Under the pieces are notes generated by a model, which was given only the letters and a program-made list of their open reading frames with translations, was not told the origin of the DNA and did no database searches. The position numbers and the translations under genes were made by a program. This document shows, piece by piece, positions 3 through 6,321 of a stretch of DNA of 28,109 bases. The first letter of the stretch is position 1. Each line of letters opens with the position of its first letter. Origin of the DNA: a virus; IMG/VR virus record IMGVR_UViG_3300026097_000077, positions 1 through 28,109 of that record; one strand, 5' to 3'.

Positions 3-494
3 GGCTTCAAGGGTGAGATCCCTGCCAACAGCCCGCTGCTGCAGCAGACCACACGTTCTGGTTCCAAAGAACTTCTGCCCAGCGGTAACGAACTGGTGAA
101 GTCGGACCAGCACTTCTGCTTGGTCGTAGAAGAGGACGGCTCCTACCAGCCTGTGGTCATCGACATGAAGTCCACGCAGCTGAAGGTGTCGCGCCGTTGG
201 AAGACGCAGATCTCTATGAAGAAGGTCAAGCACCCAGCGACAGGCAAGCTGTTCACACCCCCTGTCTTTGCCACCACATGGCGTTTGTATTCTGTCGAAG
301 AATCCAATGACCAAGGTTCGTGGAGCAATTGGCAAGTTGAGGGTCTTGGTATTGTTGAGGACCGTGACCTAATGATGGAAGCGAAGGCCTTCCGCGAGAG
401 CATCGCGGCGGGTGAGGTTAAGGCTGCTCCGGAAGAGGGGTCATCTGCCACTGCCTCCTCCTCTTCTCAGAACGAGGACGACATCCCGTTCTAA
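3..494 (+). CDS. probable ssDNA-binding protein (5' end cut by window edge)
   Basis: The frame is open from base 3, so this gene begins before the window; the GTG at 96 is probably internal. About 163 residues are visible. The body is mixed beta-type sequence with a conserved-looking patch (MKSTQLKVSRRW), then a low-complexity linker rich in Ala, Glu and Ser, then the acidic C-terminal tip NEDDIPF. A disordered linker ending in Asp-Asp-Ile-Pro-Phe is the hallmark of bacterial and phage SSBs, where the tip docks partner replication proteins. The next gene is a primase, and a helicase and a polymerase follow, which fits coating of single strands at the fork. A strong terminator follows at 506-537. 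The OB fold itself cannot be proven by eye, so the SSB call rests on the tail, size and context. It could be another phage replication accessory protein with an SSB-like tail. Confidence 0.65.
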   Translation, partial: GFKGEIPANSPLLQQTTRSGSKELLPSGNELVKSDQHFCLVVEEDGSYQPVVIDMKSTQLKVSRRWKTQISMKKVKHPATGKLFTPPVFATTWRLYSVEESNDQGSWSNWQVEGLGIVEDRDLMMEAKAFRESIAAGEVKAAPEEGSSATASSSSQNEDDIPF

Positions 495-505
495 GCAGCC
501 CAACT

Positions 506-537
506 GGGAGGGGGTCCTTACACCTCCTCCCTTTTTT
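506..537 (+). terminator. rho-independent terminator after the SSB-like gene
   Basis: A 10-bp stem (506-515 GGGAGGGGGT with 522-531 ACCTCCTCCC, all pairs Watson-Crick except one G-U) has a six-base loop CCTTAC and is followed at once by six T (532-537). This is a textbook intrinsic terminator. It lies 12 bases past the SSB-like stop codon and ends 19 bases before the primase start. The downstream replication genes therefore need readthrough, antitermination or a promoter that I cannot see. Confidence 0.9.
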
Positions 538-556
538 CCTCAACTAGGAGCCATCC

Positions 557-2089
557 ATGTCATTAGCAGACAGACTGCTGGCTGCCTTCGAGGGATCGAA
601 GGCGGGCTATGGCGAGACGACCGTTGGCCGGATTGGGCGCAAGGGCAAAGCCGAAGCAAAGAGTTTTATCCGCCGTGGTCAGATGACTGCGGACATGGTT
701 CAAGATCACATTGACGGGAAGCAGGGCGTCGGCTCGATCCCGATTAACACAGACAACAAGTGCCGCTTTGGTGCATTGGACATCGACGTTTATGACTTGG
801 ACCACAACGAGCTACAAAAGAAGATCCAGCGGCTGAAGCTGCCGCTGTTCCATTGCCGTACCAAGTCGGGCGGCGCACACCTGTATTTGTTTTTGGACGG
901 CTGGTACGAGGCGGCGACGATCCGCGAGTACCTGACCGAGATGTCGATCGCCCTTGGGTTCTCCGGTTGCGAGATCTTCCCCAAACAAGACACATTGTTG
1001 TCTGAGCGCGGAGACTTGGGCAACTTTATTAACATGCCTTACTTCGAGGCGGAGTTGACGACGCGTTACTGCTACAACAAGCAGGGCGAGGCGATGGAGC
1101 TCGAGGAGTTCTTGGATGCTGTAGACGCTGGCAGAGTTGGGCTGGCTACGCTGGATTCTTTGGATCTGTCTGGATCGAAGGAGCACTTCACCGACGGCCC
1201 ACCTTGCCTCCGCATCTTGGTAGCGACAGGCACGGTTGGTGACATGCGCAACAACACGCTGTTGCAGATGGGTGTCTATGCCAAGCTGAAGCACCCGGAC
1301 TCGTGGGAGCAGGTGGTCGAAGAGTACAACCGCACGTTCATGTCCCCGATGCTGGACTCGAAGGAGGTGCTCGGGATCATCAAGCAGCTGCAGAAGAAAG
1401 ACTACTTCTACACCTGCAACATCGAGCCGTTCTGCTCTGTCTGTGACAAGGACCTGTGCCGCAGCAAGAAGTTTGGTGTGGGCGGTGACAGCGAGGACAA
1501 GGCCCAGGTCGGCGGTCTGACAGTCGTTCTCTCCGAGCCGCGCCTGTACTTCATGGTGGTCAACGGGAAGCGTGTCGAGTTGAACGTGGACCAGATGCAC
1601 AACCAGTCGTTATGGCAGAAGGCCTGTCTCGCGCAGATAAGCTTCATGCCCGCCACTATGAAGCAGCAGGACTGGACATCGTTGATCAACCGCATGCTGT
1701 CCGAGGCGACCTACCAAGACGTGCCAAGAGAACTAACAATTACCGGCCAGTTTGAGGACCTGCTCAAAAGCTACTGCAACGGCAGCGCGCAAGCGTACGA
1801 CCCTGCGGAACTACAGACAGGTAAGCCGTGGCATGATGGTGGAAAGGTCAAGTTCAAGATGGACGGCCTCTCCAACTTCCTGCGGAACCGCAGCCACCCG
1901 TGGGCGGACAACCGCGCCAAGATTCAAGAAGAGATCAAGCGGCTTAATGGAGACCACGCCCAGCAGAGGTACAAGGACGCCAACGCGAAAAACGGGTGGA
2001 GCAAAGTAAGAGTCTGGTGGGTGCCCACCTTCGAGGAAGAAAGCATAGACCTACCGGTCGAGGAGATAGACAATGACATCCCGTTTTAA
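557..2089 (+). CDS. archaeo-eukaryotic-type (AEP/prim-pol) primase with SSB-like C-terminal tip
   Basis: A 510-aa protein that probably makes primers for the phage polymerase. The catalytic AEP core is visible: motif I at residues 71-80 (FGALDIDVYD, metal-binding D75 and D77), motif II at 104-110 (SGGAHLY, with H108), and a conserved GNFINMPYF stretch near 155-163 typical of TOTE/phage AEP enzymes. A cysteine cluster C287-x5-C293-x2-C296-x4-C301 followed by KKFGVGG looks like a zinc-binding segment. Residues 310-500 are a less familiar C-terminal domain. The protein ends in EEIDNDIPF, an SSB-type acidic tip like that of the preceding gene. The start is set by AGGAG at 546-550, six bases before the ATG. 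The last 17 nt overlap the HTH gene. Primase-only or primase-polymerase activity cannot be told apart here. Confidence 0.85.
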   Translation: MSLADRLLAAFEGSKAGYGETTVGRIGRKGKAEAKSFIRRGQMTADMVQDHIDGKQGVGSIPINTDNKCRFGALDIDVYDLDHNELQKKIQRLKLPLFHCRTKSGGAHLYLFLDGWYEAATIREYLTEMSIALGFSGCEIFPKQDTLLSERGDLGNFINMPYFEAELTTRYCYNKQGEAMELEEFLDAVDAGRVGLATLDSLDLSGSKEHFTDGPPCLRILVATGTVGDMRNNTLLQMGVYAKLKHPDSWEQVVEEYNRTFMSPMLDSKEVLGIIKQLQKKDYFYTCNIEPFCSVCDKDLCRSKKFGVGGDSEDKAQVGGLTVVLSEPRLYFMVVNGKRVELNVDQMHNQSLWQKACLAQISFMPATMKQQDWTSLINRMLSEATYQDVPRELTITGQFEDLLKSYCNGSAQAYDPAELQTGKPWHDGGKVKFKMDGLSNFLRNRSHPWADNRAKIQEEIKRLNGDHAQQRYKDANAKNGWSKVRVWWVPTFEEESIDLPVEEIDNDIPF

Positions 2090-2273
2090 TGATTTGAAGC
2101 TGATGACTGTGCGGGAACTCTCTGAGTATCTCGATGTCACCCCCGCTGCGATCTACAAGTGGATCAAGGAGGGGTCGATGCCCACACCCATCAGGCTCGG
2201 AGGTCCGAGGTCCACGCTGCGATGGCGGAAGTCTGTGATCGAAGAGTGGCTTGAGGAGAACAGCAGTGATTGA
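2073..2273 (+). CDS. small AlpA/excisionase-like helix-turn-helix protein
   Basis: A 66-aa protein that is almost entirely one winged HTH of the MerR/AlpA/HTH_17 type. Residues 10-30 (LMTVRELSEYLDVTPAAIYKW) hold the helix-turn-helix, the segment to about 50 (GSMPTPIRLGGPRSTLRWRK) is the wing, and the end (VIEEWLEEN) is the closing helix. Family members bind DNA as transcription regulators, excisionases or recombination directionality factors. The start lies inside the primase end: the bases coding the primase NDIPF tip also code MTSRF here in the +1 frame. AGGAG at 2061-2065 sits seven bases before the ATG. The gene overlaps the helicase start by eight bases. Its target is unknown; a regulator of the replication operon, an origin-binding helper or an excisionase are all possible, and no integrase is seen. 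Confidence 0.75.
   Translation: MTSRFNDLKLMTVRELSEYLDVTPAAIYKWIKEGSMPTPIRLGGPRSTLRWRKSVIEEWLEENSSD
2254..2258 (+). promoter_or_regulatory. ribosome binding site deciding the helicase start
   Basis: AGGAG lies seven bases before GTG at 2266. The alternative TTG at 2251 would lie upstream of this site and has no good site of its own, so GTG 2266 is preferred. Confidence 0.7.
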
Positions 2274-3801
2274 GAATAGCACACAGGTCTTTGGCCCACC
2301 GGGCTGTGGTAAGACAGAGTTTCTCATGGGCGTGATCGATGACGCATTGAACGACGGCGTCCAGCCTGAGGAGATTGCGTTTGTTTCGTTCTCTCGAAAG
2401 TCCATCGAGGAGGCACGGGATCGTACGATGAAGCGGTTTCAGGTTGGCCCCAAGCAGCTGGTCAACTTCCGCACGCTGCACTCTACGGGGTACTCGGAAC
2501 TGGGCGTGACCAAGGACATGGTCATGTCGAACGCAGACTACCGGGAACTGGGCCGCATGCTTGGCGAGGAGTTTGTTATCAACACCCAGCCCGAGGATGG
2601 GATCGTCATCCCGTCGGACCTGCGCCGCGGCAGCCGCTACATTCGGATCATCGACCGTGCACGCTACCGCATGATTGATCTGAAGCAAGAGTGGCGAGAG
2701 CATGAGACTTACGACCTGAGCCTGTTCAAGGCGGAACAGATCTCGGCACAGATTGCGGAGTACAAAAGCAAGGTCAACAAGATCGACTTTGTGGACATGA
2801 TCTACCAGTACATCGAGGTGGCTGAACCCAAGCGCCTCAAGCGCCTGATCGTTGACGAGGCACAGGACCTCACCCCACTGCAGTGGATGATGGTTGCCAA
2901 GATGGCGGAGCATGCCGACGAGGTGTGGCTGGCTGGTGACGACGACCAAGCGATCCACCGGTGGACAGGCGTGGACGTCAAGCAGTTCATCCGCATGTCA
3001 GAAAAACGCATAGTTTTGGACCAGTCGTACCGGCTGCCCCGCAAGATCTTCGAGGTCGGAGAGCGGATTGTTAGAAGGATCAAGGACCGAGTACCGAAGG
3101 TGTACAAGCCGACGGACGAAGAGGGCAATGTGCTCTGGCACTACACGCTGGACTCGATACCCTTGGACCGTGGTTCGTGGACCATCATGGCTCGGACCAA
3201 TGGCTTCGTTACAGAGCTGGCCAAAGCGGTGCGTGAGATGGGGTACTACTACTCGATCAAGGGGCAGGCACCGATTACCAAGGAGCAGGCTCGGGCGATT
3301 CAAACGTGGCGTGCGCTGGCACGAGGCGAGCAGGTGGAGTTGTACCTGATCAGGGAACTGTACGAGGTGGTGCCAAAGCAGGGGGACAATGCTGTCGTGA
3401 AGCGTGGGTCTGCCAAACTGCTGGACGCTGCCGATCCGGCGGGCACTCTGTCGATGCAGGATCTCGAGAGCGAATTTGGTATGATATCACAAAAGGATTT
3501 GTTTGAATACAAGAGCCCGTTCCAGGTCCTGAACCTGGGCGATGAGATGCGCCTGTATCTGGAGCACATCGAGGCGTCGGGCGAGGACATCACCAAGACA
3601 CCACGCATCAAGCTGTCTACATTCCACGCCATGAAGGGCGGGGAGGACGACAACTGCGTTGTGTATCTGGGATCAACACGGGCTTGCAGCGAGAGCCAGT
3701 TCCCAGACGACGAGCACCGCGCCTTCTACGTTGGCGTGACACGGGCAAAGAAGACGCTCCACCTTTTGGAGAGTCGCAAACAATACAGGTACAGCATATG
3801 A
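2266..3801 (+). CDS. UvrD/PcrA-type superfamily 1 DNA helicase
   Basis: A 511-aa ATP-dependent helicase with the full SF1A motif set (counted from GTG 2266): Walker A at 9-17 (FGPPGCGKT), motif Ia near 39-51 (FVSFSRKS), Ib at 68-73 (FRTLHS), Walker B at 194-201 (LIVDEAQD), motif III at 222-230 (LAGDDDQAI), motif IV at 251-259 (LDQSYRLPR), motif V at 451-462 (STFHAMKGGEDD) and motif VI at 487-498 (FYVGVTRAKKTL). It is shorter than bacterial UvrD (about 720 aa), with reduced 1B/2B subdomains, as is common in phage versions. SF1A enzymes generally move 3'-5' on single-stranded DNA. Its place between the primase and the polymerase suggests it is the fork helicase or a repair/recombination helper of this phage. 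It overlaps the HTH gene by eight bases and the next gene by ATGA. Confidence 0.92.
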   Translation: MIENSTQVFGPPGCGKTEFLMGVIDDALNDGVQPEEIAFVSFSRKSIEEARDRTMKRFQVGPKQLVNFRTLHSTGYSELGVTKDMVMSNADYRELGRMLGEEFVINTQPEDGIVIPSDLRRGSRYIRIIDRARYRMIDLKQEWREHETYDLSLFKAEQISAQIAEYKSKVNKIDFVDMIYQYIEVAEPKRLKRLIVDEAQDLTPLQWMMVAKMAEHADEVWLAGDDDQAIHRWTGVDVKQFIRMSEKRIVLDQSYRLPRKIFEVGERIVRRIKDRVPKVYKPTDEEGNVLWHYTLDSIPLDRGSWTIMARTNGFVTELAKAVREMGYYYSIKGQAPITKEQARAIQTWRALARGEQVELYLIRELYEVVPKQGDNAVVKRGSAKLLDAADPAGTLSMQDLESEFGMISQKDLFEYKSPFQVLNLGDEMRLYLEHIEASGEDITKTPRIKLSTFHAMKGGEDDNCVVYLGSTRACSESQFPDDEHRAFYVGVTRAKKTLHLLESRKQYRYSI

Positions 3802-4112: not shown

Positions 4113-4381
4113 CAAAAGACGAAATCATTGAGACGGCCAGAGCACTGATCTCAGGGCAGCGGGCAGTGGACTACGGTGACGCGAAGGACAACTTCGATCG
4201 GATCGCCGCGGGCTGGAACATCATCGTTGAGAACCTCGACGGCCCTGTCACAGCAAAGCACGTTGCGCTGATGATGGACTGGGTGAAGACAGCGCGACTG
4301 CTGGAAACGATTGACCATGAGGATTCATGGATCGACAAATGTGGATACTCTGCCTTGGGTGGCAGCTTCGAGAAGGACTGA
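4109..4381 (+). CDS. DUF6378-like phage protein
   Basis: A 90-aa helical protein. The pattern DYGDAKDNFDRIAAGWN, then VTAKHVALMMDWVKTARL, then an Asp-rich stretch before a C-terminal GYSALGG, matches my memory of the DUF6378 family found in many phages and prophages. Its function is not established. The small all-alpha form with paired acidic residues recalls MazG-like nucleotide pyrophosphohydrolases, but I cannot show that relation here. AGGA at 4098-4101 is seven bases before the ATG, and the start overlaps the previous stop as ATGA. It lies directly before the DNA polymerase and shares one base with it, so nucleotide-pool or replication work is plausible. Confidence 0.65.
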   Translation: MTKDEIIETARALISGQRAVDYGDAKDNFDRIAAGWNIIVENLDGPVTAKHVALMMDWVKTARLLETIDHEDSWIDKCGYSALGGSFEKD

Positions 4382-6321
4382 TGACCATGGCACGAGATCG
4401 TAAAGACAAGAGCACAATCGCATTCTTCGAACGCATGGACCTTGGCGAAAAGCTTGTGCCGGACTGGAACATCCCACCAAGCTACCCCGACCTAACCTGC
4501 TACCCGCAGATTGCGATCGACCTTGAGACTTGCGATCCGCACATCACAACGCTCGGGCCTGGCTGGGCACGCAACGACGGGTTCATCGTTGGCATTGCTA
4601 TCGCTGCGGGGGATCAGTCTTGGTACTTCCCGATCCGCCACGAGAACGGCCACAACCTCGATCCAAAGATGACGATGAAGTGGCTGCGCAAACAGATGGC
4701 CACACCAGACATCGACAAGCTGATGCACAACGCTACCTACGATCTGGGCTGGCTCCTTGCAGAAGGGGTCGAGGTCCAAGGTCGAATTATCGATACGATG
4801 GTTACCGGCGCTATCGTGGACGAGAACCGGTTTTCATACAGCCTGAACAATCTCGGGCGTGACTACATCGACATGCGCAAGGACGAGAAGATGCTGCGCG
4901 CTGCAGCAAAGGACTGGGGCATCGATCCAAAGGCAGACATGTGGCGGCTGCCGCCGTCGTACGTTGGAGCGTACGCCGAGCAGGATGCGTTCATGACCAT
5001 GAAGCTGTGGGACCGGCTCAAGACAGAGATCTCTGAGCAGGACCTGACACACATCTTTAACCTCGAGACATCGCTCATCCCCGGCATGGTAGAGATGCGA
5101 ATGCGCGGCGTGCGTGTGGACATCGACAAGGCCGACATTGCCAAGAAGGGTCTAAGGATCAAGGTCCAAGAACTGAAGGACGAGATCAAACGTAAGACAG
5201 GGGTGGACATCGAACCTTGGGCGGCTGCGTCTGTACAGAAAGTCTTCGAGGCTCTGAACCTGCAGTACCCCAAGACCGATGCCGGTGCGCCTTCGTTCAC
5301 CAAGCAGTATCTTGCGGCCCACCCGCACGAAGTGTGCCAGATGATTGTCCGGCTGCGTGAGTTCGACAAGGCGGACAGCACGTTTATCGACAGCATCCTG
5401 CGGCACGAGCACAAGGGTCGGATCCACACAGAATTTCACCAGCTGCGCTCCGATGACGGCGGCACTGTGACCGGGCGCTTCTCTTCTTCGAACCCCAACC
5501 TCCAGCAGATTCCTGCTCGGGACCCGGACATCAAGAAGCTGATCCGCGGCCTGTTCATTCCAGAGGAAGGACAGATGTGGGGGTCGTTTGACTACTCGTC
5601 TCAGGAGCCGCGCCTGCTGGTGCACTTTGCAGCCTGCATGCCTGACCGCATGCGCAGCCCTGTGGTTGATACGATTGTGGACGAGTACCACAAGGGTGAC
5701 GTTGACCTGCACCAGATGGTGGCCGACATCGCTGGCATCACCAGAAAGCAAGCTAAGGTTGTAAACCTCGGCATCATGTACGGCATGGGTGTAGGCAAGC
5801 TGGCCGCGCAGCTGGGCGTATCGGACCAAGAGGCCAAGAGCATCATCGAAGAACACCGCGAGAAGGTGCCGTTCGTTAAGCAGCTGGCCACGACAGCCAG
5901 CCAACGGGCCGAGGAGAACGGACAGATCCGCACGATCCTCGGACGCCTGTGCCGGTTCCACCTGTGGGAGCCCACAACCTTTGGATACAACAAGCCGCTG
6001 CCGCTTGAGAAGGCAAAGGAAGAGTACGGCTCTGTTGGCAACAATCTGAAAAGAGCGTTTACTTACAAGGCGCTAAACAAGTTGATCCAAGGTTCTGCCG
6101 CAGATCAAACGAAAAAAGCTATGGCGGATTGTTTTAACGCGGGTCTCGTTCCTTTGCTGACGGTGCACGATGAGCTATGCTTTTCGGTAGAGGACGAGGG
6201 GCAGGCGGCGCAGATCAAAGAGATCATGGAGACCGGCCTCCCTCTCAAGGTGCCCTCTAAAGTTGATGACGATATCCCAGCCCTACGGGGGCTGCCAAAC
6301 AATTGGGGAGAGGTCGAATGA
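4381..6321 (+). CDS. family A DNA polymerase with 3'-5' exonuclease
   Basis: A 646-aa replicative polymerase. The proofreading exonuclease shows Exo I (D47, E49 in IAIDLET), Exo II (D121 in HNATYDLGW) and Exo III (Y198 and D202 in YAEQD). The polymerase domain has motif A D404 (FDYSSQEPR), motif B R455-K459-L463-Y467 (RKQAKVVNLGIMYG) and motif C H596-D597-E598 (VHDE). There is no 5'-3' exonuclease domain, so the plan is that of T7-like phage enzymes. The residue equivalent to E. coli Pol I F762 is Leu463. The start at 4381 shares a base with the previous stop (TGATG). ATG 4387, nine bases after AAGGA at 4373-4377, is equally possible and would remove two residues. An in-frame ATG at 4327 inside the previous gene is rejected. 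No DnaJ-type cysteine repeats sit between the domains. Confidence 0.96.
   Translation: MTMARDRKDKSTIAFFERMDLGEKLVPDWNIPPSYPDLTCYPQIAIDLETCDPHITTLGPGWARNDGFIVGIAIAAGDQSWYFPIRHENGHNLDPKMTMKWLRKQMATPDIDKLMHNATYDLGWLLAEGVEVQGRIIDTMVTGAIVDENRFSYSLNNLGRDYIDMRKDEKMLRAAAKDWGIDPKADMWRLPPSYVGAYAEQDAFMTMKLWDRLKTEISEQDLTHIFNLETSLIPGMVEMRMRGVRVDIDKADIAKKGLRIKVQELKDEIKRKTGVDIEPWAAASVQKVFEALNLQYPKTDAGAPSFTKQYLAAHPHEVCQMIVRLREFDKADSTFIDSILRHEHKGRIHTEFHQLRSDDGGTVTGRFSSSNPNLQQIPARDPDIKKLIRGLFIPEEGQMWGSFDYSSQEPRLLVHFAACMPDRMRSPVVDTIVDEYHKGDVDLHQMVADIAGITRKQAKVVNLGIMYGMGVGKLAAQLGVSDQEAKSIIEEHREKVPFVKQLATTASQRAEENGQIRTILGRLCRFHLWEPTTFGYNKPLPLEKAKEEYGSVGNNLKRAFTYKALNKLIQGSAADQTKKAMADCFNAGLVPLLTVHDELCFSVEDEGQAAQIKEIMETGLPLKVPSKVDDDIPALRGLPNNWGEVE

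Follow-up and report, generated by a model that had tools for sequence, protein, structure and literature searches.

Matching and covarying C-terminal tips on the primase and the SSB-like protein of a phage and its relatives

The archaeo-eukaryotic-type (AEP) primase of a virus record and the SSB-like protein encoded beside it end in almost the same short acidic tip. As judged from sequence comparison across relatives, the two tails change together lineage by lineage, beyond shared ancestry. Conservation supports the primase tip being a selected, docking-type tail that resembles the tail of the neighbouring SSB-like protein. It is rather likely that the matching tails are one shared docking tail, read by a single phage-encoded partner. 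The stretch analyzed, called the window hereafter, is the whole virus record of 28,109 bases; its left edge cuts through the first gene, and the record is probably a fragment.

The primase, the SSB-like protein and their gene cassette

The genes and segments considered are listed in Table 1. The usual order of the cassette in relatives is gp32-like, gp33-like, gp34-like (SSB-like), primase, helicase and polymerase.

Table 1. Features of the window, with the evidence for each
Feature	Coordinates	Strand	Evidence or remark
SSB-like protein, Pam3_Gp34 family	3..494	+	C-terminal 163 aa, start outside the window; PF23977 E=7.8e-34, phrog_2402 E=4.7e-33
SSB-like C-terminal tip DDIPF and stop	477..494	+	Sequence; last residue hydrophobic in 96% of 194 representative relatives
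AEP primase (archaeo-eukaryotic-type), 510 aa	557..2089	+	PF22548 AEP-TOTE E=1.5e-14; phrog_21866 'primase' E=1.7e-89
AEP catalytic domain, residues 40-168	674..1060	+	Pfam match; invariant D75, D77 (DxD), H108
Primase cysteine cluster C287, C296, C301	1415..1459	+	Invariant columns in two alignments
Primase disordered acidic tail, residues 491-510	2027..2086	+	Predicted structure, low pLDDT
Primase tip DNDIPF and stop	2069..2089	+	Sequence; conservation; codon-position diversity
Small HTH_17/AlpA-type DNA-binding protein	2073..2273	+	PF12728 E=3.3e-11; possible ATG within primase tip codons
UvrD-like SF1 helicase, candidate partner	2266..3801	+	PF00580 E=9.8e-26
Family A DNA polymerase with 3'-5' exonuclease (PolA)	4381..6321	+	PF00476 E=2e-59, PF01612 E=9.1e-14

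By family and fold the larger of the two proteins is an AEP primase, with primer synthesis as its putative activity. Its match to PF22548 scores 54.6 bits (cut-off 27), and the invariance of D75, D77 and H108 in the primase alignments means that the conserved acidic and histidine catalytic residues of AEP are present. The three cysteines of Table 1 form a probable zinc knuckle that would bind metal. The nearest solved fold is the CRISPR-associated Prim-Pol (CAPP) 7nqf. The AEP catalytic domain is shared with the CAPP structures 7nqd, 7nqf and 7p9j (Foldseek E 1.7e-10, TM on the target 0.68-0.73; profile E 6e-16) and with the PrimPol of cyanophage S-2L (6zp9). Identity to these proteins is about 20%, and the window primase has its own cysteine cluster, along with a C-terminal region and the acidic tail. 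The predicted model has a pLDDT of 86, with an ordered strand at residues 481-490; pLDDT falls to 58 and 50 in the last two blocks of ten residues, and the last 20 residues are disordered.

The SSB-like protein is seen without its N-terminus, over 163 of roughly 265 residues, the full length being judged from relatives. The visible part matches PF23977 with 118 bits (cut-off 27), the profile of Pam3_Gp34 (phrog_2402), a family listed as of function unknown. An AlphaFold2 model of a full-length relative (L002; pLDDT 87) has a beta-rich core and a disordered C-terminal tail, which has no confident placement (pLDDT below 50 for residues 255-262). On average, the last eight residues of the SSB-like proteins hold one more acidic than basic residue. 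A fold search of the PDB with the model gave no match at E≤0.001; its weak top matches include the OB-fold DNA-binding proteins RPA, MCM, SsbA and PrgE, with TM scores below 0.3. In a viral structure library mostly unnamed proteins were matched, one match being named SSB (E 7e-5, TM 0.29). A profile search of the PDB with the SSB-like alignment returned nothing useful. Position, tail and weak fold likeness are thus suggestive of a putative SSB with an OB-fold and single-stranded DNA binding. The label SSB, given to the protein in an earlier note on this DNA, agrees with the acidic disordered tail but goes further than a family without assigned function and a suggestive fold search allow.

Other C-termini of the cassette are also conserved. 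That of the gp33-like protein (DUF7307), encoded upstream of the SSB-like gene (L081:2604-3158 and homologues), is strongly basic, with basic residues outnumbering acidic ones by 2.5 on average among the last eight. In the UvrD-like helicase a run of basic residues is followed by a conserved C-terminal [FY]x[LI]. The pattern [FYW]x[LIVF] fits 137 of 187 representatives, and the helicase of the window ends RKQYRYSI. This end, which may be another docking tail, is missing in the HTVC023P clade, where the primase tip is also lost. The gp34-like gene of MW202510 lies at L082:3104-3886, where the depositors annotated an open reading frame of the opposite strand instead.

Conservation and coding of the tips

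The SSB-like gene closes with gacgacatcccgttctaa, read as DDIPF and stop, and the primase gene with gacaatgacatcccgttttaa, read as DNDIPF and stop. Both tips are found as the earlier note described them, and the final 15 bases of the two genes, stop codon included, indeed differ by one base. The likeness was to count as chance if related primases had the same core without an acidic DIPF end, or ended at a variable position; neither was seen in the clade of the window. Alignment of related primases, which the note had proposed, showed the acidic end [DEN][IV]PF in 104 of 104 loci at least 50% identical to the window. The stretch from a shared R[VC]W to the C-terminus always measures 26 residues, so that the tip keeps the same spacing from the last structured segment. 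Likewise, the primases of all 80 viral contigs spanning 98 to 55% identity end [DEN][IV]PF, and the complete SSB-like proteins of these contigs end IPF with one exception (ILF in L025). Among 6194 other open reading frames of at least 100 aa, the end [DE]x?[ILVA]PF occurs in four, each of them a second ssDNA-binding protein. The last three residues are identical to those of the SSB-like protein of the same genome in 38 of 194 primases, versus 0 of 2595 other open reading frames. Because of this conservation, the rarity of the end elsewhere and the within-genome matches, the primase tip is taken to be more than chance.

The tip of E. coli SSB is DDDIPF, and DnaG is among the partners that recognize the carboxylate of the terminal Phe of the bacterial SSB C-terminus (PMC5872125). 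The window and its clade resemble this bacterial tip (partners DnaG, PriA, chi, ExoI) in having acidic residues and IPF at the exact C-terminus, the last four letters being identical. They differ from it in that the tip is also found on the primase, and [IVL]PF is not kept across relatives, the distant ones having IV, II, SNY, SNF, SEF or PDL on both proteins. Of the primases 90%, and of the SSB-like proteins 96%, have a hydrophobic last residue, and the tails are net acidic.

Primases of the HTVC023P clade, which end TGKFRT, and those of Dinoroseobacter phage R5C and Pseudanabaena phage Pan1, which end DGEA, lack the tip, so the primase tail is not needed everywhere. In all three the SSB-like protein retains an end of the VPF/IPF type. 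The TGKFRT end is itself strongly conserved in the HTVC023P-like loci (L523-L602), and in HTVC023P (L089) the stretch coding for it runs into the beginning of the helicase gene. The sole match in a scan with the R5C primase was R5C itself. Vibrio phage K300 has a primase of another type, without the gp34 tip.

In most relatives, a possible ATG of the downstream HTH gene (aATGac) lies inside the codons of the primase tip. Nucleotide diversity in the last four primase codons is 0.074, 0.000 and 0.392 at codon positions 1, 2 and 3, respectively. The primase frame is therefore the constrained one, since its variable third positions are second positions of the overlapping frame. Moreover, the tip is retained in four loci (L003-L006) in which the ATG is missing. 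Codon positions and these loci rule out that the tip arose merely from overlap with the downstream start codon. Copying of DNA between the two gene ends is ruled out as well, because across the clade third-base identity at tip residues common to both ends is no higher inside one genome (0.291) than between different genomes (0.305). On this codon evidence, the near-identity of the two tips at the DNA level is accidental and the match is one of proteins.

Covariation of the two tails

Further scans and annotated phages provided 457 usable primase loci, reduced to 210 representatives at 90% identity, of which 194 have a complete SSB-like end. Within the clade of the window the tips (primase/SSB-like protein) are DIPF/DIPF. 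In the HTVC027P lineage they become ENIV/QDIV and DII/DII; elsewhere they are KSNY/KSNY, ESNY/ESNY and DNY/ANY in L243, L246 and L248; TNY/ANY in L137 and PNY/GNY in L290; ESNF/ESNF in L214 and GSF/TSF in L155; EPDL/EPEL and EPDL/ETEL in L449 and L454; and EAPF/EAPF in L496. KAEF/HSEF is also found among the covarying ends, and in L082 both proteins have an extra residue (PPPFV/DIPFA).

As shared ancestry alone could yield such a table, pairs were drawn without reusing any branch of the tree, and over 200 random draws the matches inside a genome were set against those obtained after swapping partners. The ratio of own-genome to swapped matches was 15:3, 19:4 and 24:8 for the last two, three and four residues, with median P values of 0.004, 0.002 and 0.0035 that are uncorrected for the depths tried; all 200 draws gave P<0.05. 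The signal was weaker for the last residue alone (9:3, median P 0.07) and, at three residues, when a substitution-matrix score replaced identity (P 0.26). The identical test was null for the C-termini of the helicase, PolA, and the gp33-like and gp32-like proteins. With the last residue classed as aromatic or aliphatic, a Pagel test preferred dependent evolution (LR 14.5, 4 df, P=0.006). Covariation is incomplete, with for example a primase ending EIM beside an SSB-like protein ending SHF. Only three tree-independent concordant aromatic/aliphatic switches were counted, and for this reason the partner cannot be found by covariation of alignment columns.

A forecast was set beforehand: where the primase ends K[SA]EF or RSEF, the gp34-like protein was expected to end alike. 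The phages concerned infect Acinetobacter, Salmonella, Providencia, Pseudomonas and Klebsiella, and their gp34-like genes lie several kb downstream of the primase gene. The gp34-like ends found were GGEF, HSEF, SDEY, ATEM, NNDM and SEDM, that is a clear match in three cases, a looser one in three, and IPF in none.

A probable shared docking tail and its candidate partners

Of nine Pelagibacter genomes, eight encode a host SSB ending DDDIPF or DDEIPF, and the ninth encodes one ending DDPPF. HTVC027P infects Candidatus Pelagibacter, and its primase and SSB-like protein both end IV; in the Pelagibacter phages of this lineage, the two proteins each end [DE]I[VI] or NIV. The phage pair thus follows itself and not the host, since host SSBs keep DD[DE]IPF where the pair has [DE]I[VI]. 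The primases of Acinetobacter, Salmonella, Klebsiella and Providencia phages end SEF or AEF, and their SSB-like proteins EF, EY, EM or DM. Phages of the Acinetobacter/Salmonella group, as well as Vibrio phage K300, encode a second small ssDNA-binding protein (phrog_18154, DUF736-like; L439:6173-6475, L440:5749-6090, L445, L447, L604:5906-6385). It ends DDDIPF, DDDLPF or DDGIPF, and the gp34-like protein of the same phage ends differently.

The mechanism proposed is as follows. Short acidic tails, predicted to be flexible and closed by a hydrophobic residue, terminate both the primase and the SSB-like protein; the two would have been selected to fit one socket on a phage-encoded replication protein. 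They would bind the same site, encoded by the phage; as the socket shifts between lineages, both tails would shift with it. The socket would most likely lie on the phage's own PolA-type polymerase, a tentative choice made by analogy. The tails may then bring in the polymerase or pass it on, with the SSB-like protein acting on the coated template and the primase at the fresh primer.

The preference for PolA comes from phage T7, whose gp2.5 (SSB) and gp4 (primase-helicase) have acidic tails that act on the family A polymerase gp5. The two T7 tails are interchangeable, a point that is given no weight as evidence here. The acidic tails of gp4 contact basic patches of gp5 (PMC12593628, PMC8472574), and the tail of gp2.5 is implicated in the interaction with the polymerase and the primase-helicase (PMC5686142). 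In common with the T7 replisome, the window phage combines an SSB-like and a priming protein, each with an acidic tail predicted to be flexible, with a polymerase of family A. Unlike T7, where priming and helicase activities are joined in gp4, the window has no primase fused to a ring helicase: the AEP primase and the UvrD-like SF1 helicase are encoded by separate genes. The SSB-like protein belongs to the Pam3_Gp34 family, and the two tips, at the level of sequence, match residue by residue and covary. A socket on PolA only cannot be general, because acidic, F-ending tails of the gp34 type also occur in phages with PolIII-type polymerases, such as the gp34-like proteins ending AEEF and AEQF in a Pbunavirus and a Myosmarvirus (L603, L606).

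The main rival to PolA is the SSB-like protein itself, whose own ssDNA-binding groove could be the socket, covered by its own tail in cis or in trans; the like tail of the primase would dock there, on the DNA-bound or free SSB-like protein. Such a groove accounts for the covariation with two proteins only and fits the gp34-type tails found beside other polymerases. It also has a parallel in T7, where, as reported in a paper citing Marintcheva 2008, the acidic tail of gp2.5 competes with ssDNA for its own cleft (PMC2965674). It is still considered unlikely, as AlphaFold2 leaves the tail of the relative without confident placement and the fold search gives no more than a hint of an OB-fold in the SSB-like protein. 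Docking of both tips on host SSB-binding proteins (PriA, chi, RecO, ExoI and others), the mimicry put forward in the earlier note, appears improbable. That the tip is a conserved docking-type tail holds, DIPF in the clade of the window has the same letters as the bacterial tip (PMC5872125), and for this clade taken alone a host partner is possible. As a general explanation, however, mimicry is unlikely from the sequences: the pairs of pelagiphages and other lineages carry tips unlike those of the host while host SSBs keep IPF, and in some phages DDDIPF sits on another protein, the primase/SSB-like pair having a code unlike it.

The two remaining explanations dispense with a common socket. The tails could be a generic C-terminal signal for stability or solubility, their likeness being due to shared ancestry and convergence to a loose pattern. 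Distant lineages are indeed loose, with an acid followed by any of F, Y, I, V, L or M, but both the end and the covariation are missing from control genes at these loci, and exact residues recur together, as in SNY/SNY, SNF/SNF and APF/APF, which makes this very improbable. Still further down the scale, with next to no credence, comes an origin of the primase tip from the overlapping HTH start codon or from DNA of the SSB-like gene end. The position of the ATG in most relatives would suit it; the codon positions, the retention of the tip without the ATG and the lack of DNA sharing speak against it, and the tips still match in other phages in which the two genes are far apart.

Returning to a shared docking tail with a phage-encoded socket, it is about evenly balanced whether these phages use a private, evolving docking code that diversifies with that one socket, the host-type DDDIPF protein representing, where present, a second and separate code. 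If so, one phage would contain two tail codes, DDDIPF for host partners and the other for the phage replisome. The tip of bacterial SSBs is read by many partners, which keeps it nearly invariant; the matched variation of the tip on two phage proteins would amount to a natural mutagenesis of a docking code. Acidic tails were already known from T7, and what the sequence comparison suggests as new is the tie, through covariation, of the Pam3_Gp34 tail to the primase tail. The coupling of priming to the polymerase in a phage with an AEP primase, and the separation of the phage code from that of the host, become testable. A protein end matching the genome's own gp34 tip may serve as a simple signal for annotation, and Pam3_Gp34, a family of unknown function, would gain a likely role in the replisome of hundreds of mostly marine phages.
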